From positions 1 to 21,147 of IMG/VR virus record IMGVR_UViG_3300005588_000456: a stretch of DNA of 21,147 nucleotides; one strand, 5' to 3'. The position numbers and the translations under genes are program-made. How positions within the stretch are numbered: position 1 is the first letter of the stretch; each line of letters begins with the position of its first letter. Of this stretch, positions 2,348 through 21,147 are shown piece after piece. The stretch is from a virus. The notes under the pieces were generated by a model that saw nothing but the letters and a program-made list of their open reading frames with translations, was not told the origin of the DNA and made no database searches.

Positions 2348-3358
2348 CTATTTGAGCATTTTAGTTAATGGAGTGACGTGCGTATTAATCTTGCCGAGTG
2401 GATTAGCCTTATCCACTACCTGTGTAAGCTTTCTAAGCGCTAACTGTTGGTAGATGCGAGTGGTGTCAGCATTGGCGTGACCAAGTAATGTCATGACTTC
2501 TGGAGTAGTCGCTGATTCTTCAGCTAACTCAGCGCCAACTAAATGGCGCATTGCATGAGGGTGTGCCTGGTCTGCCGGAATACCTGCTGCCTTTGCATGC
2601 TTGGTGATGATGTCCTGTACTGTGCGCTTCTGAAGTCTTCTCTTCTCGCCACGATGATCATACTCAGGCACGGTTCTGTTGCGAGTATTGATAAAGAGTA
2701 CTCGTTGGCCATTAGGCAGCAACCTATCGGCACTTCTAAAGTCCGGATGTGCCAGGTAAGCCTGAAGGAGTAGCATCGCTTCACTGGGAACAGGGACTAC
2801 CCGCTGATTCTTACCCTTCTCTTCCAGGCTAACAGCACAACGAGAGTGACCTGCCTCATCCTCATACCAGACCAAAGACTCTTGATTCAGGCTAATCAGA
2901 CCGCTAATACGCATACCTGTGCCAATCAGCATAGCCATGATAGTGACATCTCTTAAACCTATAAAGGTATTGATATCAGGTGCCATCAATAGCTTTTCAG
3001 CATTCTTCAGCCCAAGCGCTTTAGGTATCTTTCGACCTATTCTTGGGTAGACCAGGCGAAGAGATGGGTTGGAAGGGATGTGGCCATTCTCAAAGAGCCA
3101 GGTGTAAAAACCTTTCACGGCTGCAATAACCGCTTTCCTTGAGCTAGGGCTTAAACCCTCTTTATATAAGTGCATCCCGGTCCAATCCAACAGCTCCTGG
3201 TAAGACAGGTCAATGAATGGGGTGTCTGGATAAAAATTTTTAAGCCTTACCAGGTAACCAAAGTACTTCTCAGCCGTTGAATCTGACCGTCCTTCAGCCG
3301 CTTTTTTGTAATCAATCCACTGTTTAAGCAGTTGAAAACATGGTTCTTTTTCGAACAT
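2348..3358 (-). CDS. XerC/D-like tyrosine recombinase
   Basis: This is a 336-residue site-specific recombinase with an N-terminal SAM-like core-binding domain (about 5-95) and a C-terminal catalytic domain (about 115-320). The catalytic set is visible: Arg150 in GTGMRISGLISL, a Lys in EEKGKNQR (181-183), His268-x-x-Arg271 in HAMRH, His294 in LLGHA and the nucleophile Tyr303 in RIYQQL. Its architecture is that of XerC/XerD and of many phage or plasmid resolvases; its length also matches integron integrases, but I see no integron-specific segment or attC. The start is supported by GGGGAGG 7 nt upstream. It is not adjacent to the tRNA junction, so it may serve dimer resolution or another site, possibly in the repeat-rich 606 bp directly upstream. 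Function as recombinase is firm, substrate unknown. Confidence 0.92.
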   Translation of the reverse strand: MFEKEPCFQLLKQWIDYKKAAEGRSDSTAEKYFGYLVRLKNFYPDTPFIDLSYQELLDWTGMHLYKEGLSPSSRKAVIAAVKGFYTWLFENGHIPSNPSLRLVYPRIGRKIPKALGLKNAEKLLMAPDINTFIGLRDVTIMAMLIGTGMRISGLISLNQESLVWYEDEAGHSRCAVSLEEKGKNQRVVPVPSEAMLLLQAYLAHPDFRSADRLLPNGQRVLFINTRNRTVPEYDHRGEKRRLQKRTVQDIITKHAKAAGIPADQAHPHAMRHLVGAELAEESATTPEVMTLLGHANADTTRIYQQLALRKLTQVVDKANPLGKINTHVTPLTKMLK

Positions 3359-3964: not shown

Positions 3965-4261
3965 TTAAGCTTTGGATTGATTGAGCTTACGTGAAATCTT
4001 ATCTAGATCTGGCTGGTATTTCTTTTCAGTACAACACCGAAACAGCTCCTTCTTCGATACTCCCGCCTGGTTTGCCATACTCTTAAACAATTCACGATGA
4101 AATGGGGCGTGGTGACTGTCGACCGTAACCTTACGATATGGATTATCTGCCGTCCACTGTTCATGACCGCCTTTCTGGCTACTAAAAGAAAAGCCGAGCT
4201 TTGTGAGCCCGGCTTTCATTTCTTTCTCTGTGACCGGCCTTAGCTTCCGTATTAGGCCCAT
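3965..4261 (-). CDS. hicA: HicA-like toxin (mRNA interferase)
   Basis: This 98-residue basic protein has the HicA dsRBD-like fold signature: a lysine-rich first helix (KEMKAGLTKLGF), the catalytic-type histidine in KGGHEQW (His33), a strand KVTVDSHH, and the C-terminal helix pattern FHRELFKSMANQAGVSKKELF. HicA toxins cleave mRNA and are neutralised by HicB. It overlaps the upstream hicB-like gene by 10 bp, the usual sign of coupled translation in toxin-antitoxin pairs. The order is antitoxin first, the reverse of the classic hicAB arrangement but found in many other HicBA loci. A C-terminal extension after about residue 75 (CTEKKYQPDLDKISRKLNQ) is longer than in minimal HicA proteins. Assignment is by pattern only. 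Confidence 0.75.
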   Translation of the reverse strand: MGLIRKLRPVTEKEMKAGLTKLGFSFSSQKGGHEQWTADNPYRKVTVDSHHAPFHRELFKSMANQAGVSKKELFRCCTEKKYQPDLDKISRKLNQSKA

Positions 4262-4581
4262 GCTCGACTACGTGGCTCCTCTTCGAACGCTAAGCATTTG
4301 GTGTCATTACCGTTCTTTTTCGAATGGATATAACACATCAATTTAATCCAATGATAGCGTAGTATTTGTGAAAGTGGCGCTTTTCTGTTTAATAGTTGAT
4401 AAGCATGCTGCCTATCAACAGTTACAGCCTCTTGCACGTAGTCAACAATTTGTCCATGAAGCTTTTGCTTTGCTTCTACCATGGTATCAGCTTGAGCGGC
4501 CAGGCTTAAGTCGATACACACAGCTATCCAGAGGCCATCTGACTTTTCAGCATAGCATCTTAGTAATTTGTCTTGTTGCAT
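4252..4581 (-). CDS. hicB: HicB-like antitoxin
   Basis: This 109-residue protein has the N-terminal HicB partial RNase-H-like fold: strand LLRCYAEKSDGLWIAVCIDL, then AAQADTMVEAKQKLHGQIVDYVQEA. Residues 60-80 (NRKAPLSQILRYHWIKL) resemble the middle of short HicB-like proteins. I cannot see a clear C-terminal HTH or ribbon-helix-helix domain, so DNA binding, if any, would be unusual. The start is supported by AAGGAG 6 nt upstream, and a 17-bp palindrome lies immediately before that. It presumably neutralises the HicA-like protein encoded 10 bp back in its own 3' end, stabilising the element. Confidence 0.72.
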   Translation of the reverse strand: MQQDKLLRCYAEKSDGLWIAVCIDLSLAAQADTMVEAKQKLHGQIVDYVQEAVTVDRQHAYQLLNRKAPLSQILRYHWIKLMCYIHSKKNGNDTKCLAFEEEPRSRAWA

Positions 4582-4975: not shown

Positions 4976-5058
4976 TTGTGTTGTCTCCTTGTTTTATTAT
5001 TGGTTAATGCGCAAGCCTGCGCCGCAATAATATACGGCTCAGGCGCGCATTTCCCAAA

Positions 5059-5577
5059 TCAGGCTGCCGGTAATTCTGCGAAATCGACCCTGTGGCCAAG
5101 AATGTTCGACAGGTCTCGAACCTCCTGTTGCAGGACAGACTTCAAGAAAGGATTGGTGGTCCCGGACAGCTTCTCGGAGACAGCAACGAGCTGTTTAGAA
5201 TAGCTGATGCGTTGGCTGGAGCTGACTTGGCCATAAGCGCCCCATTTCCGTATCGAGGGCAAGACCTCCTCACACACCCAGTTCGCGAACTCGATGGCCT
5301 TGGCCTTGTTCGAGCGGAAAATGAGTCGATAGAGGGCTGGTTCGGAGAGGAAAGTAGTCTCTTTTGCCCCACTCTGCATGCTAACCTTTATCATGCAGGT
5401 CCACTCTTTTGGCATGTTCTTCAGCGTCTGATTGCTCCAAGAAACGTCCAACGCATCGCACACATCCTTAGCGCAGAACCAGGTATTACCCAGCTCATCG
5501 CTGGCGGTTCGGATCTCGTTCTGGGTGAACAGGAAGGGATTAGCGATAGGCTTTATTTGCATCTCTTGATTATTCAT
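5059..5577 (-). CDS. Bro-N domain antirepressor-like protein
   Basis: This 172-residue protein has a canonical Bro-N domain at about 16-115: FTQNEIRTASDELGNTWFCA, then KDVCDALDV, a central strand region, FLSEPALYRLIFRSNKAKA and FANWVCEEVLPSIRKWGAY. Bro-N proteins bind DNA or other proteins, and phage members often act as antirepressors. The C-terminal 55 residues are helical and not recognised. The start has AGGAG upstream and overlaps the previous gene by 8 bp, so expression is coupled to the Bro-like gene and, through it, to the C4-like RNA further upstream. In this position it is the best candidate for a factor that inactivates the CI repressor at 16426-17184. Confidence 0.87.
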   Translation of the reverse strand: MNNQEMQIKPIANPFLFTQNEIRTASDELGNTWFCAKDVCDALDVSWSNQTLKNMPKEWTCMIKVSMQSGAKETTFLSEPALYRLIFRSNKAKAIEFANWVCEEVLPSIRKWGAYGQVSSSQRISYSKQLVAVSEKLSGTTNPFLKSVLQQEVRDLSNILGHRVDFAELPAA

Positions 5578-6058
5578 GGCTGCTCTCCTTAGTGTTTAAA
5601 GACACAACAGTCGATAGATACTCTGCCACCCTACTATCTTCACCCAGAAGGTCGGCGTGTTCGCAACCACTTTCAAAGCGATTGAATGCCGCAACCACAT
5701 CAAATAAAGAATCGATATGGTCTGGCACTACAGTTTTTATTAAGCGGCGAATACCAGCAAGGTTGATCACATAGCAGTTGATATTAGTTGCCCAGCACAC
5801 GAAACCAACTTCTCGCATTGCATTGCTTGGCTCATCTTCAACATACAGCTTTAACTGATACAACGCCTTCGTGACGTCCTCCCAGAAAAACCAGAGTTCA
5901 CTATTCATCGAATACGCTGGTCGCATATAGGTATTGCCGAAAATGGGATGCCTAAGGAAAGGAACGCCATAAAGGGTAAGGGTATTCGTTCCAGGAGGAA
6001 CGCAAGGGTTGTAGCGATGCTCGCTCAGTACAGTCGAGCTTTGAGTTTGATCAGTCAT
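5570..6058 (-). CDS. Divergent Bro-N-like protein, first gene of the antirepressor unit
   Basis: A 162-residue protein. I chose ATG 6058 because GGAGG lies 5 nt upstream; the open frame continues further up, but that part runs through a structured RNA and is unlikely to be translated. Residues 28-115 follow the Bro-N layout in diverged form: LTLYGVPFLRHPIFG, SELWFFWEDVTKALYQL (matching the WFCAKDVCDAL stretch of the next gene) and a YVINLAGIRRLI helix at the position of the conserved ALYRLIFRS helix. The region between about 6060 and 6183 contains a C4-like RNA with 7-nt complementarity to the sequence overlapping this ribosome-binding site, so translation is probably repressed in the lysogen. 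It may be a partner, regulator or second antirepressor. Confidence 0.7.
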   Translation of the reverse strand: MTDQTQSSTVLSEHRYNPCVPPGTNTLTLYGVPFLRHPIFGNTYMRPAYSMNSELWFFWEDVTKALYQLKLYVEDEPSNAMREVGFVCWATNINCYVINLAGIRRLIKTVVPDHIDSLFDVVAAFNRFESGCEHADLLGEDSRVAEYLSTVVSLNTKESSHE

Positions 6059-6104
6059 AATGACCTCCACGTGTTTTTGTGTTTTCGGCCACCTGAAAAT
6101 AGGT

Positions 6105-6183
6105 GGTCGGGAGTTCACAACCGTGCACGTGGCCACGGCGGGTTCATTCCCCTTTCGGGTCTTGTATTCGCCCACTCCCGACC
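6105..6183 (-). ncRNA. C4-like antisense RNA candidate upstream of antirepressor genes
   Basis: On the minus strand a 79-nt segment is closed by a perfect 10-bp stem, GGTCGGGAGT (6183-6174) with ACTCCCGACC (6114-6105). Inside are a GACCCGAAAGGGG hairpin and a CCGTGG/CCACGTGCACGG region. A plausible promoter places transcription start at the first G of the closing stem. The internal box CCACGTG (6132-6126) is complementary to CACGTGG (6073-6067), which overlaps the ribosome-binding site of the following Bro-like gene. C4 RNAs of phages P1 and P7 have this position and mode of action: they are made from the leader of the ant operon and block ant translation. Sequence identity to a C4 family model is not checked. 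A second hairpin, CCACCT/AGGTGG (6089-6106), overlaps the 3' end of the closing stem and could compete with it. Confidence 0.6.
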
Positions 6184-6189
6184 ATAATC

Positions 6190-6219
6190 GATATAGCCAG
6201 AAGCTTATTGTAGGCACAA
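6190..6219 (-). promoter_or_regulatory. Promoter of the C4-like RNA and antirepressor unit
   Basis: On the minus strand TTGTGC (6219-6214) and TATATC (6195-6190) are spaced 18 bp. The start expected 7 nt downstream falls at 6183, the first base of the 10-bp closing stem of the candidate RNA. The agreement between promoter spacing and stem start is the main support; the hexamers themselves are moderate. Confidence 0.45.
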
Positions 6220-6258
6220 AAAAACCGCAACGTGAATGCTCAATAAGGGCGGTTGCGG
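6218..6258 (-). terminator. Intrinsic terminator (minus strand) upstream of the C4-like RNA promoter
   Basis: CCGCAAC (6258-6252) pairs with GTTGCGG (6231-6225) and is followed by seven T (6224-6218) on the minus strand. The loop is long (20 nt), so strength is uncertain. It would insulate the antirepressor promoter from transcription entering from the right. The rest of 6259-6384 contains no convincing gene; a weaker GGAG/CTCC hairpin with a T-run lies near 6286-6306. Confidence 0.5.
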
Positions 6259-6384
6259 GTTATATGCCGCCACGTGATGTTGTAAAAAAAGGAGTTGTGA
6301 AGCTCCAGTCGAAAGTGTATCTTTAAACTTCGCTTTTTGTCAAGGGGTGCGAAAACTGACAGAGAGCAACGCAGCGCATTCACG

Positions 6385-6415
6385 TTGCACAACAAAGAAT
6401 TAACTTATAAGTTAA
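6385..6415 (+). promoter_or_regulatory. Promoter region of the lipoprotein gene with 16-bp palindrome
   Basis: TTGCAC (6385-6390) and TATAAG (6406-6411) are 15 bp apart, slightly short for sigma-70. The -10 lies within the perfect 16-bp palindrome TTAACTTATAAGTTAA (6400-6415), a likely operator. It sits 29 bp before the gene start, so the gene has its own regulated promoter, as expected for a moron expressed from the prophage. Confidence 0.5.
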
Positions 6416-6444
6416 CCAGGATGACTAACAAAAGGAGAACACCT

Positions 6445-6957
6445 ATGACCAAACTCATCCCAATCATTTTGCTGGTATTTCTAAGCGCTTGCGCCAGCAT
6501 GAACGATGCACTAACACCCGATGCAGATATTGTAGAAGATGAATTTTACGGAACAAAAGAAGTTTACCAAGAACCTGTTAGCGCAACCAGCGCCTTCTCT
6601 GAAGGCTGGAACCTGCTTGGATTCCGTTGGAATACAGGGAATCCTGACATAGTTTACCTTTTAATAGCAGTTAATGGTGCTGTTAATGTGGAGGGACTAG
6701 ACTTTCGAATTGGCAACGAGTTTATTCAAACTGAAACTGCCAGCACACTGACTAAGTATGAAGATTCACATTCTCGACGTCAGTTTAAAGTATCCTATGA
6801 AGATTTCTTGAAGATAGCTAATGCTGATGAAGTCTTGATGCGCGTGGAGATGATCGACAAATACAATGTCAGCTCATTTGGTAAAAGCAAAAACGCAGCG
6901 GTTGGTTCAAAATTCCCCAAGTTTCTGGAACAGATAAAGCAGCTGAAGGGTTCTTAA
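6445..6957 (+). CDS. Predicted outer-membrane or periplasmic lipoprotein (moron)
   Basis: A 170-residue protein starting at ATG 6445, supported by AAAGGAGA 7-8 nt upstream; the open frame further upstream lacks a ribosome-binding site and a signal sequence. Residues 1-14 form a short signal peptide (MTKLIPIILLVFLSAC) ending in lipobox LSAC with the lipid-modified cysteine at 16. The mature protein starts CASMND and has no motif I recognise; it has alternating strands (GWNLLGFRWN, DIVYLLIAVNG, GLDFRIGNEFIQ) and a basic C-terminus. It is on the opposite strand from all its neighbours, with its own promoter, palindrome and terminator. This is the classic arrangement of a lysogenic-conversion gene; superinfection exclusion at the cell surface is a possible role, not shown. 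Confidence 0.82.
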   Translation: MTKLIPIILLVFLSACASMNDALTPDADIVEDEFYGTKEVYQEPVSATSAFSEGWNLLGFRWNTGNPDIVYLLIAVNGAVNVEGLDFRIGNEFIQTETASTLTKYEDSHSRRQFKVSYEDFLKIANADEVLMRVEMIDKYNVSSFGKSKNAAVGSKFPKFLEQIKQLKGS

Positions 6958-16425: not shown

Positions 16426-17184
16426 ATGAATGAAATATTTTCATCGAACCTAAACAAGATGATAGGTCATCGAAAGCCCTATCGATGGGCGGCTGAATTA
16501 GGCCTGAGTAAATCAATGATGACGAAAATGAAGGATGGGCACGTTCCCAGCGAGGAGGCACTGAGCCACATCGCTTATTGTGAAGGTGTGAGTCTTTCCT
16601 GGTTACTCTATGGCGCTGGCAGCCGATACGACATAGAAAGCTACAACGAAGACGATTTAGCGCACTTTATTCAAAAGTCCGGCAATGAGATTGATAAAGT
16701 GGATCTTGTCAGTGACAGAAAGCGGGTGGGATTGTTTGTCTACACGCGTGAAAAAATGAGCTTTAAGGGTAACTCTGTAAGCATTGATAAAATTCGCCGA
16801 TACTCAGTTTATCCCTCGCATGAATTCCTGAAAGTTATCGAACCGATCAGCGGCAAAATACAGTCTCTGGAGGTGGTCAACTCGCAAGAATTTGATGATG
16901 TGATCGGCAACCAGCTTCTTGAGCCAATGATTAAAAATATCGGCTGGAGCAACATTAAACCAACCCTGGCTAAAATTATTGAATTCGGAAAAGCGCCTGA
17001 ATTGGCTCAGGCATTAGAGCTGGTCTTTAATGCGATGGGGATTGAAGGACTGGATTCGCTGCAGATCGCCAAAACAACGAATCAAATTATGAACATGAGC
17101 GAAGATTCCGGGCAACCCATCAATGAGATAAACCCGGCATTGGTTCGGACGCTTTTTAACGGCAATGAAACCAAAGAAGATTAA
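16426..17184 (+). CDS. CI-type phage repressor without peptidase domain
   Basis: A 252-residue protein with an N-terminal HTH of the phage CI type (about 8-62: LNKMIGHRKPYRWAAELGLS, SKSMMTKMKDGHVPSEEAL, AYCEGVSLSWLLYGAG). The C-terminal 190 residues show no Ala-Gly cleavage site and no Ser/Lys dyad of the LexA/lambda CI peptidase, so RecA-induced self-cleavage is unlikely. This fits control by an antirepressor. It is divergent from the Arc-like gene and the early operon, and its 3' end overlaps the convergent tail gene by 4 bp. A weak AAGGA precedes the start at a long distance. Confidence 0.8.
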   Translation: MNEIFSSNLNKMIGHRKPYRWAAELGLSKSMMTKMKDGHVPSEEALSHIAYCEGVSLSWLLYGAGSRYDIESYNEDDLAHFIQKSGNEIDKVDLVSDRKRVGLFVYTREKMSFKGNSVSIDKIRRYSVYPSHEFLKVIEPISGKIQSLEVVNSQEFDDVIGNQLLEPMIKNIGWSNIKPTLAKIIEFGKAPELAQALELVFNAMGIEGLDSLQIAKTTNQIMNMSEDSGQPINEINPALVRTLFNGNETKED

Positions 17185-17567: not shown

Positions 17568-18308
17568 TTAAGTATCCTCTTCAAGATTAAATAAAATATG
17601 TTCGCCAGCTGGATGATCAACTGGAGCGGCCCTTGTGACCGACACCTGGTCGCCGTTCACATCGACAACTTCAACCTCTTCATCGCCAAGCTTGGCTTTT
17701 TTGCCCACCGCTATCCCGTTCCCAGCATCAACCATTTCAATCGTCACATCATTCGCAGCTGGAATCACTTGAGCAGCCGCCTTAGCAACGGGAGGCAGCT
17801 TTCGGTTAGCTTTGTCTTTATCGATAACGCCAACAACGTCGAGCAGTTCTTTCGGTGCTCCATGTGCTTGCATCAAGCCTTTCTTAAAGTTACGAGCACA
17901 CTCATGACGCTTTGTGGTTAGATCCCTGTAATATTGCTCGTCAGCATCTTCAAATGCTTGCCGTGTGTTAAAGTCCTTTTCTTCTGGCTTAGTGATTAAA
18001 TCAATCTCAGCTTTGGTATCGATACGAATCTGTTTTTCACGGCAACCACCACAGGCCCAATCATTCGGAATTCCGTCAAAGGGACTGGTATCAACCAACT
18101 CAGCAGGAAGGCAGAAGCAACCACACCCTTCACATTGATAGAGGATCTTCGCTGGTTCGGTGACTGCATAGGTTGGTTCCTCCTCACCCTCTACAAATAC
18201 CTCCTGAACCACCGCCTTACGGATAACCTGAGTTTTCCCTAGAAACTCGAAGCCGTTTTGCAATGCCTCATAAAGAGTAGGCAATTTAAAGCTGATTACT
18301 GTATCCAT
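17568..18308 (-). CDS. Tail-module protein with zinc-ribbon motif
   Basis: A 246-residue protein. Residues 55-92 contain C-x2-C (Cys59, Cys62, also 64 and 66) and C-x2-C (Cys86, Cys89), likely a zinc site. A helical middle part (EDADEQYYRDLTTKRHECAR) and an Ala/Val-rich C-terminal domain (VTIEMVDAGNGIAVGKKAKL) follow. The start overlaps the gpJ stop by TAATG. I do not recognise the family; it may be a tail accessory or chaperone protein. Confidence 0.65.
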   Translation of the reverse strand: MDTVISFKLPTLYEALQNGFEFLGKTQVIRKAVVQEVFVEGEEEPTYAVTEPAKILYQCEGCGCFCLPAELVDTSPFDGIPNDWACGGCREKQIRIDTKAEIDLITKPEEKDFNTRQAFEDADEQYYRDLTTKRHECARNFKKGLMQAHGAPKELLDVVGVIDKDKANRKLPPVAKAAAQVIPAANDVTIEMVDAGNGIAVGKKAKLGDEEVEVVDVNGDQVSVTRAAPVDHPAGEHILFNLEEDT

Positions 18309-21147
18309 TATTCACCTGCCAATAGTTCAAAGATTAAATCCTCAGCGCCAGAAGGCGTACCCGTTTCTTCATTCGGAGCTGTGGCTGTGTAGTATTTGAC
18401 GTTATCAAAAGCGTTAATCTGCCCACCATTAGTTCCTAGGAAGAGTACGGTAACCGCAAACTCACGCCCTGCATGATTCGTTAACCCATCAACGCTAATG
18501 GTGTGTTCGTCATTGACATAAGTAGTGGTAGGCCCTGCGGAGGATCCGTTGAAGGTTTTTTCGCCACGTTTAACCCAACCACCACCATCGTTTGTATAAT
18601 ATCCAACTTTGACAACTCCGGGGAAGTAGTTATCAAGTTCTTCGTCATATTGATTATTAACTGTTACATCAATTTGAAACTGATAATTGTCGTCCCAAGC
18701 CTGAGCACTGACCGATTTATGCATGACGAAATCATAACCATCCACATTTGCCGTGCTACCTGAATCCGTGTTTAAAGTAGTCGAACCCGCTAGTTCTTTA
18801 ATTTTTGCAGAGCAATCAAAACCTGTTGTGGACACATTAATTGCTTTTGAAATTAGGTTTTGCTTACCTGTTAGAGTTGTTGAAAATGTCACCCCGCCTC
18901 TGAACTTAATGATTGGGGGCGTATTGAACGCGGTGTTAAACACATGACTCCCACCATCACGTATCACGCCAGCACCAAGACCAAAAGGTGCGCGTCTAAT
19001 GGTTCCATCGCCTTGGTTAATTCCTAAATTTTCAACTAAACTCCCGGGCCCGATAACGGTTTGATTCGTGTTATTTGCTTGCAACCCACCCAATCTTACA
19101 GGAATGTAGGGAAGCTCGACTTCCCCTTTGTAGACTTGTGCACGTCTCCAATGCTGGTTATTGGTTCCGCTGCCTGTGCCATTGTTGCCATTACGTACAG
19201 CAATAGCCATATAAACTGTACCGACAGGGATCGTTGCAAACCCATATATCCTAGTCGGGGTCGATGTGCTGTTATACTGCCCGCCATTACTAACTCCAAC
19301 GTGAGATTGTGCTCCATCATAAAATCTATGACGCATATCCAAGGTTTGACCATCATCGCTCCAAACCTCGGCAGAAATAGCAACTACATCACCTACTACT
19401 AATCCTAAATCAGAGATTAAAAATAGCTCTCCAACATCCTGAAAAGTGGTTCCATCAAAATCGCGTTGTGAATGGTAACTAGGAGGTGCCCCGTTATCAT
19501 AATTGACCAAGTTATTAAGGAGGTTATTTTCTGGCGGTTTACTTACAAGATTGGCATACCAGTCAGCGCCCAAAGTAGCGCCCGACTCTGGCAGCATTGC
19601 CCACCCAGCTCCATTCATTAAATCATTTTGTATCAGGGAGTCATTACGTATTGCTTCAATGCCAGACAGCGCTGAAAGATTTGGTGGGCGGTTTGCGACG
19701 TGCATTGACCAGTCTGCTTCGTTAAAGTCTGCAAGCGCGCCGAAGAGCCCAGGGTTTCTGATCTGGTTATAAGTCAGCAGATCATTATTCACACCATCAG
19801 GCATGTTGATCATTGGCAAATTGCCTGAGAAATCTCCGTAATCAAAGTTTGAGGATGTTGCACCTATGCCTGTGGTGTTGGTGGGATGCCAGACTGAATA
19901 ATTGCCGGATGTGTCTTTGCAGCGGATCCAGTAGTAATTGGTTACACTTGGGTCAACGGCATGGCGATAAAAAGTTGACGGAGCCGCGACTTTTGCCAGC
20001 AACAGTGCATTGTTCAAATCGTTGGTAGGGCTGACATAAATTTCGGTCAACTTTACGTCTGGATCAGCTGGCAATGACCAGGTTAAATTCAAACGTCGAT
20101 AACCTCCGGTGACGGACAAAGAACTCGGGCCACCGGGTGGGATAGCTTTAGCTGTCACGGTATGGTTCGTGAGAGTTAACCAATCTGACGCACTCCCCCA
20201 GTTAGCGACCGTTCGAACACGAATATCTATCACATCACCTTCAACCAGTCCTTCCAGCGTGTCGGTTGGCTCTGTTGCAATATATCCCGTCCATTGATTC
20301 TGACCGGCTGGCGACCACTGAACTTCATAGTCACGCACAAATGCAAACGCGGGTTTAGTCCAGGAACACTTTACGCCTACCTTCAGCTGACCTGTTGGCG
20401 CTATGACGTGCACGTTGACAGCGGCCAAGTTAGTTGGTGCTGGAATATCAAAAGAGTTCGGTAGCGAAGTTCGCGGGGGCGGATTATAGACCGTTAAATT
20501 TCCATCGGCATAATCGTACATGGCGGCACTGTCTTCTGAGACTGTCATAGACAAGGCGCTGTCGGCAGGGTTATACCCAACATCAGTCACACGCACGCCA
20601 TAACTTTGCCAACCCAGGAGCGTGTTTGTTAGTGCGATATTTTCGCCCACTGGAACCAATACACCTTTCGAAGTAGTCTCAAAATTCGCTGTCAGACTGG
20701 ACTTGTTTCGAGCCAGCATTAATTTGGCGATACGTTGTGCCATGTAAGCCGATATCGTGAACGGTAGCTCAATGTCTTCTACGATGTCCTCTCCAAACTG
20801 GTTAACCAGATCGGTGTCTCTCACCTCCGGGAAATCGGTGGGAAGATACACAGAATCCGGATCGATGAACTGACCGCGCACCACATTAAACGTATCTTTT
20901 CGACCACTCCGAGGATTGATATTAATATCCGACACAAAATCATCATCGGTCAGCTCGACAACAGGCGCACCCTGGTACACACCAGGAACAGCGACAAAAC
21001 CACTCAAAGTCATTGACCAATGGCCGGCCATCGCTGTCACCATGGCGTCAAAATTCTGAGCAATGGGAGAATCCGTCTTAACCACACCATTCAAGGTGTA
21101 TCGAGGTTCGCTGCCACCGCCTGGTTTAGCGACTAATTCATCACAGG
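18308..21147 (-). CDS. Lambda gpJ-like tail tip / host specificity protein (5' end outside the window)
   Basis: The frame is open to the right edge, so this is the C-terminal 946 residues of a longer gene; the TTG at 21094 is not its start. The visible beginning (EPRYTLNGVVKTDSP, QNFDAMVTAMAGHWS, FPEVRDTDLVNQFGEDI, YMAQRIAKLML) is the conserved tail-tip part of gpJ-like proteins. Two fibronectin-III-like modules follow (starting APTNLAAV and PSSLSVTGG). The C-terminal 450 residues are strand-rich, with a variable, Asn/Gly-rich sequence typical of receptor-binding tails. It identifies the phage as having a lambda-type tail (siphovirus morphology, inferred) and probably decides host range. Confidence 0.88.
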   Translation of the reverse strand, partial: CDELVAKPGGGSEPRYTLNGVVKTDSPIAQNFDAMVTAMAGHWSMTLSGFVAVPGVYQGAPVVELTDDDFVSDININPRSGRKDTFNVVRGQFIDPDSVYLPTDFPEVRDTDLVNQFGEDIVEDIELPFTISAYMAQRIAKLMLARNKSSLTANFETTSKGVLVPVGENIALTNTLLGWQSYGVRVTDVGYNPADSALSMTVSEDSAAMYDYADGNLTVYNPPPRTSLPNSFDIPAPTNLAAVNVHVIAPTGQLKVGVKCSWTKPAFAFVRDYEVQWSPAGQNQWTGYIATEPTDTLEGLVEGDVIDIRVRTVANWGSASDWLTLTNHTVTAKAIPPGGPSSLSVTGGYRRLNLTWSLPADPDVKLTEIYVSPTNDLNNALLLAKVAAPSTFYRHAVDPSVTNYYWIRCKDTSGNYSVWHPTNTTGIGATSSNFDYGDFSGNLPMINMPDGVNNDLLTYNQIRNPGLFGALADFNEADWSMHVANRPPNLSALSGIEAIRNDSLIQNDLMNGAGWAMLPESGATLGADWYANLVSKPPENNLLNNLVNYDNGAPPSYHSQRDFDGTTFQDVGELFLISDLGLVVGDVVAISAEVWSDDGQTLDMRHRFYDGAQSHVGVSNGGQYNSTSTPTRIYGFATIPVGTVYMAIAVRNGNNGTGSGTNNQHWRRAQVYKGEVELPYIPVRLGGLQANNTNQTVIGPGSLVENLGINQGDGTIRRAPFGLGAGVIRDGGSHVFNTAFNTPPIIKFRGGVTFSTTLTGKQNLISKAINVSTTGFDCSAKIKELAGSTTLNTDSGSTANVDGYDFVMHKSVSAQAWDDNYQFQIDVTVNNQYDEELDNYFPGVVKVGYYTNDGGGWVKRGEKTFNGSSAGPTTTYVNDEHTISVDGLTNHAGREFAVTVLFLGTNGGQINAFDNVKYYTATAPNEETGTPSGAEDLIFELLAGE

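Follow-up and report, generated by a model that had tools for sequence, protein, structure and literature searches.

The window analysed here, a virus record of 21,147 bp, carries on its minus strand a structured RNA element ahead of a small operon with a candidate antirepressor gene of the Bro-N type. A first-pass annotation, made from the sequence alone, had taken this element for a C4-like antisense RNA working by the logic of the c4-ant immunity of phages P1 and P7. The question raised by the locus is hence twofold: to which RNA family the element belongs, and whether it acts as an antisense lock on the genes that follow it.

Family and fold of the RNA element

A search of Rfam covariance models (cmscan) assigns the element to sRNA-Xcc1 (RF02221) over the full length of the model (positions 1-87), with 64.7 bits against a cut-off of 53 (E 6.8e-10). 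By contrast, the C4 model (RF01695, curated cut-off 45 bits) found nothing across positions 5000-6450 even with the E threshold relaxed to 10, while real C4 RNAs in four comparison loci (L300, L301, L303 and L108) score 56-71 bits against it. The C4 identity formerly proposed, and with it membership of RF01695, is hence rejected, but a wrong family label alone says nothing on mode of action.

The perfect 10-bp closing stem that had been described is present in both the sequence and the fold of the minus strand (GGUCGGGAGU, 6183-6174, with ACUCCCGACC, 6114-6105; MFE z-score -2.85). Its 5' end is the trinucleotide GGU (6183-6181), and the RNase P processing of C4 uses GGW. Inside the stem, the hairpin at 6139-6120 presents the sequence CCACGUG within its loop, and fold, covariance-model alignment and the complementarity peaks described below all reveal the C4-type stem-loop architecture with antisense boxes a' and b' (Table 1). 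Like C4 (P1/P7; RF01695, clan CL00128), the features of which are summarized in PMC5320573, the window RNA comprises a closing stem and two inner hairpins, with boxes A and B placed alike; unlike in C4, hairpin 1 of the sRNA-Xcc1 family is a conserved AAUACAA-ACCCGNNAGGGGAA element. Compensatory changes, which the first-pass annotation had suggested looking for, are seen in abundance, since the 97 distinct closing-arm pairs found among 137 RNAs all pair, many of them through double changes, although this result is biased towards structure because the stems came from a search that maximized pairing.

sRNA-Xcc1 has been published as an integron-borne RNA of Xcc, controlled by HrpG/HrpX (as cited in passages of PMC12444791 and PMC12189769) and without established targets. 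It occurs in integron cassettes upstream of symE (PMC12444791) and is present in Xylella islands (PMC12189769). The window copy, a member of the same sequence and structure family, is in contrast phage-borne, and the mechanism proposed for it here relies on adjacent targets.

Table 1. Features of the RNA module and of the operon that follows it in the window.
Feature	Position	Strand	Description	Basis
Promoter-like element	6314..6343	-	TTGACA-18-TACACT; predicted to launch the leader, with transcription expected from near the b1 hairpin	Consensus scan, 10/12
Leader hairpin	6291..6306	-	GGAG-CUUCACAA-CUCC; loop shows most of b1	Sequence and fold
Upstream target b1	6294..6301	-	TTCACAAC	Perfect 8-nt complement of box B
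Upstream target a1	6269..6276	-	CACGTGGC (= CACGUGGC)	Perfect 8-nt complement of box A
Intrinsic terminator of leader	6218..6258	-	CCGCAAC/GTTGCGG stem, long loop, 7-T run at 6224-6218	Sequence and fold
RNA of RF02221	6097..6183	-	C4-like architecture	cmscan and fold
Box A	6126..6133	-	Hairpin-2 loop, GCCACGUG	Peak of own-versus-swapped complementarity in the family
Box B	6114..6121	-	GUUGUGAA, directly 3' of hairpin 2	Second complementarity peak in the family
Downstream target b2	6077..6081	-	CACAA (5 nt)	Complementarity match
Downstream target a2	6067..6073	-	CACGTGG, 2-nt overlap with Shine-Dalgarno sequence	Complement of CCACGUG in box A
Shine-Dalgarno sequence	6064..6068	-	GGAGG of first gene, ATG at 6058	Sequence
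First gene	5570..6058	-	162-aa orphan	Weak Bro-N alignment
Bro-N antirepressor gene	5059..5577	-	Overlaps first gene	Pfam Bro-N 1.5e-20; PHROG anti-repressor Ant 1.8e-33

Target sites on both sides of the RNA

The anti-RBS box claimed for this locus is confirmed: the loop sequence CCACGUG complements a2, which reaches 2 nt into the Shine-Dalgarno sequence, and one of the two boxes is thus placed to occlude the downstream ribosome-binding site, as in C4. The downstream match is nevertheless modest (7+5 nt, compared with 8+8 nt upstream), and chance pairing at this site is inflated because CACGTG is palindromic. The upstream target, with its promoter-led leader and intrinsic terminator, had been overlooked in the first-pass annotation. 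The leader of the window matches its own RNA over 16 nt (8+8, both perfect), as opposed to at most 12 nt for each of the 139 other listed RNAs. The layout of this leader (b1 in a hairpin loop, a1, terminator) is the same as that of isrK, even though the isrK model (RF01394, cut-off 50 bits) has no match in the window leader at E up to 10.

The upstream element of the family keeps a fixed order, consisting of a -35-like hexamer, a stem-flanked b1, a1 and a T-run. Among 113 listed loci, the hexamer lies ahead of b1, mostly at 39-44 nt (~42), in 85 (7 controls), b1 is flanked by a 4-bp stem in 81 (23 controls) and a T-run follows within 60 nt 3' of a1 in 95 (5 controls). A promoter starting at the closing stem itself, as had been claimed, is not what the family conserves, for a -35-like hexamer occurs within 60 nt before the RNA in just 21 of 135 listed loci, against 8 controls. 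Because a conserved promoter precedes the leader and none comparable is kept directly before the RNA, the simplest reading of these sequences is that a read-through transcript is probably processed to yield the RNA.

The operon in its genomic setting

Two Bro-N genes had been reported downstream of the RNA, of which only the second is recognizable as such. For the first gene, comparison with Pfam, PHROG, PDB and phage sequences gave no match beyond a weak alignment with the Bro-N profile (probability 15%), no relatives of its protein were found in viral contigs or phage records, and a structure model of it was unusable (pLDDT 35.5). The Bro-N product is the clear candidate for the antirepressor of this phage. 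The description of a CI-like gene (16426-17184) without a peptidase domain holds, an HTH domain being its sole hit, and a two-level immunity link between the antirepressor module and this CI-like repressor is plausible.

Other regions of the window contain a HicA-like toxin gene (3965-4581, minus strand; PF07927, 1.7e-7), with an overlapping upstream ORF where the HicB antitoxin would sit, and a homologue of the central tail fibre J (18308-21094, minus strand; PHROG 31, 1e-54), which agrees with a lambda-type tail. In addition, the attachment end of the prophage is probably marked by a tRNA-Asn beside a serine-recombinase-like ORF, together with a tyrosine integrase encoded separately (20-1622 and 2348-3358).

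Relatives of the RNA and the genes they precede

Relatives were gathered by the motif ATACAANACCCGNNAGGGGAA in the conserved hairpin 1, leaving the antisense boxes out of the query. The scans of IMG/VR viral contigs and of GTDB genomes returned at least 119 stretches each, family counts being thus lower bounds, and at least 140 non-redundant loci remained after removal of near-duplicates and a closing-stem filter. Of 16 viral loci sampled, 14 passed the RF02221 cut-off, as did each of the six annotated records from phages or plasmids that were tested, and the exact boxes of the window were found in no other viral contig scanned.

Downstream genes on the same strand begin mostly 35-70 nt past the closing stem. 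The Pfam families assigned to them in the 67 listed viral loci, which can overlap, are Rha (11), P22_AR_C (11), Bro-N (10), KilA-N (9), AntA (5), P22_AR_N (5) and ORF6N (5); judged by these domains, the downstream genes in phages are mostly putative antirepressors, drawn from six antirepressor domain families. The 59 listed genome loci feature the XAC0095 family (16), Bro-N (14) and SymE (4). Deposited annotations of the downstream genes read 'ant' in Aaphi23 and Rac-SA53, two antirepressors in Bordetella phage IFTN1, a KilA-N gene in Acinetobacter phage 4316 and a BRO gene in a Pseudomonas plasmid.

Complementarity follows the locus

For every RNA, complementarity was scored by exact Watson-Crick matches, both to the flanks of its own locus and to those of the remaining listed loci; free duplex energy also rated own flanks better than swapped ones, yet it was discarded as a statistic, being noisy from pairing of the GC-rich scaffold. 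On the downstream side, 72% of own and 12% of swapped pairs have a longest exact match of 7 nt or more (z 20; listed loci), and two collinear boxes together cover 12.0 nt with own flanks and 8.2 nt with swapped ones (z 21.8; 140 listed loci). On the upstream side, the two-box match in the listed loci averages 14.3 nt (own) versus 9.4 nt (swapped; z 36.5), with 13 nt or more in 84% and 2.9% of cases, respectively. A scan with 6-mers from every position of the RNA reveals that, for both flanks, the excess lies in the loop of hairpin 2 and in the stretch directly 3' of that hairpin. Complementarity peaks for own and swapped flanks, respectively, at 52% and 2.7% downstream and 62% and 4.2% upstream for box A, and at 33% and 5% downstream and 57% and 8% upstream for box B. 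The downstream scan shows a smaller rise at the very 3' end of the RNA, where the query passes the closing stem into the leader, which we read as local hairpin pairing. The 3' box of the downstream target usually extends 2-3 nt into the Shine-Dalgarno sequence in the family loci listed.

Complementarity thus covaries between the RNA and its own sites on both flanks: where RNAs of the same scaffold differ in their loops, their targets differ to match, and in genomes with multiple copies the own upstream site is strictly the best for 22 of 25 copies. At least one site is matched in 127 of 137 listed loci (both in 85, downstream only in 12, upstream only in 30), and neither in 10. Blocking of the ribosome-binding site is not universal, because about 30 loci, mainly Xanthomonadaceae with XAC0095-family genes, have the upstream site only. 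Distant targets in trans, considered for the loci without a downstream match, were rejected on the grounds that their boxes match the upstream leader.

In fourteen Xanthomonadaceae loci (L124, L129, L132, L147, L149, L160, L167, L171, L173, L195, L204, L218, L223 and L233) the boxes match the upstream leader but not the next ribosome-binding site, and the next gene is mostly of the XAC0095 family (NF047335), with symE in L124. These loci may hold a domesticated or transcription-only variant of the RNA. Three symE loci (L240, L162 and L172), in turn, have both upstream and downstream target sites, and their RNA may serve as an antitoxin RNA for SymE; L240 is probably an integron cassette, since it bears an attC-like GTTAGGC motif.

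Relationship to C4, IsrK and P4 CI RNA

The same procedure applied to 22 non-redundant C4 loci, as a control, yields 15.4 nt (own) versus 9.5 nt (swapped) downstream and 13.7 nt versus 10.0 nt upstream (z 13.8 and 10.6); here, too, the hairpin-2 loop holds box A and box B follows hairpin 2, the geometry of the sRNA-Xcc1 family. C4 shares with this family a Shine-Dalgarno-overlapping target before the next gene and an upstream leader target, and it likewise precedes antirepressor genes; the downstream target boxes, however, are often 3-5 nt apart in the sRNA-Xcc1 family, as against some 20 nt or more in most C4 loci examined. The closest relatives of the window Bro-N protein (46-50% identity) are preceded by C4 in L300, L301 and L303 and by sRNA-Xcc1, in the same place, in L302, suggesting that C4 and sRNA-Xcc1 have been exchanged interchangeably ahead of related Bro-N genes. 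Both RNA families are found 1.4 kb apart in L108. The c4-ant logic proposed for the window, with antisense silencing of the antirepressor operon, is strongly supported by comparative evidence, namely the own-versus-swapped contrast at two boxes and two sites, its recovery in the C4 control, the apparent exchange with C4 and the six antirepressor domain families downstream.

IsrK/STnc1160 of Gifsy-1 (RF01394) offers a similar arrangement, with a leader RNA and intrinsic terminator, a processed RNA sharing complementary sequences, and an operon that includes anrP; the short IsrK acts in trans to activate a read-through transcript (PMC4825925). The isrK loop UUGGCA of the Rfam consensus complements UGCCAA in C4, and in L301 (2761-2837) isrK lies directly before C4, with its loop complementary to C4 box B. 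This adjacency and complementarity make isrK look like a C4 leader target in L301, and suggest that it may be one generally. In a similar vein, the P4 CI RNA (seqA, seqC) is a processed antisense RNA with targets upstream and downstream of itself (PMC4825925), but it works by transcription termination on replication genes, and the likeness drawn here is one of layout.

Proposed mechanism and its alternatives

We consider the window element to be an antisense immunity module of the C4/P4-CI type built on the sRNA-Xcc1 fold, with a probability of roughly 0.86 on the comparative sequence evidence. For its operation, from processing, silencing and action in trans to the effect on lysogeny and the role of the leader (termination or sponge), we infer the following course. 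Transcription would begin at the upstream promoter, at about 6307, and a fraction of the transcripts would end at the leader terminator. Read-through copies would hold the RNA, which would probably be excised at the closing stem in the way RNase P releases C4, leaving GGU at its 5' end; once free, the RNA would expose box A in a loop, with box B single-stranded. Pairing with a2/b2 would block translation of the antirepressor operon, and the phage would stay lysogenic; pairing with a1/b1 in the leader would either favour termination, as with P4 CI RNA at seqA, or allow the short leader to titrate the RNA, as with IsrK.

The main rival is a leader switch acting in cis only, in which the boxes would pair with a1/b1 or a2/b2 within a single transcript, controlling its termination or translation with no free RNA. 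It owes this position to the folded 271-nt leader, which permits such pairing: the lowest-energy fold joins a1/b1 to the boxes of the RNA (z -4.2), and a separate promoter for the RNA is not conserved. We nonetheless hold this switch to be unlikely, for Northern and RACE show the Xanthomonas sRNA-Xcc1 to be a discrete RNA of 88 nt (PMC2996969), C4 and P4 CI, which share the geometry, are processed free RNAs (PMC5320573, PMC4825925), and an intact loop that displays box A, set behind a strong closing stem, fits a free RNA. In the predicted full-leader fold (window 6040-6310, minus strand), the closing stem has its 5' arm paired with the preceding GCUUCUGGCUAU, and a1/b1 pair with the boxes; this fold is a possible alternative, unprocessed state of the transcript.

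The literature presents sRNA-Xcc1, and the Xylella sXF RNAs, as trans-acting regulators of virulence or host genes, a role with which the reported control by HrpG/HrpX agrees. As the primary function of the family this seems very improbable, more so than the cis switch, given that the boxes follow the adjacent sites locus by locus, that within a genome the best fit is to the RNA's own leader for 22 of 25 copies and that the Xanthomonas symE cassette L240, with its attC-like GTTAGGC motif, has both sites beside the RNA. Host targets may exist, secondary to the adjacent sites.

Implications

No link between sRNA-Xcc1 and antirepressors was found in the literature searched, subscription papers lying mostly outside that search, and the only article found there to list sRNA-Xcc1, C4 and isrK jointly gives them as separate annotations and leaves antirepressors unmentioned (PMC12189769). 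In a broader reading, to which we give slightly better than even odds, RF02221 would be a portable antisense lock with a private two-box code, built on a second and independent scaffold and put to several uses, with a sponge or attenuator leader, exchange with C4 and virulence effects as by-products. If this is true, phages lock antirepressors, plasmids BRO genes, and integrons and chromosomes SymE toxins and XAC0095 genes by the same means; the self-terminating leader RNA would be an anti-antisense sponge or attenuator, each copy an insulated RNA switch exchangeable with C4; and the virulence and vesicle roles reported for sRNA-Xcc1 would be by-products of the antisense lock. The mechanism proposed here gives a specific and testable function to an RNA family that for 15 years has carried the annotation of a virulence-linked sRNA, with targets sought genome-wide, and it links phage immunity (C4, P4 CI, IsrK) to integron symE cassettes. 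It further suggests that superinfection specificity may be readable from loop sequences of 7-8 nt.
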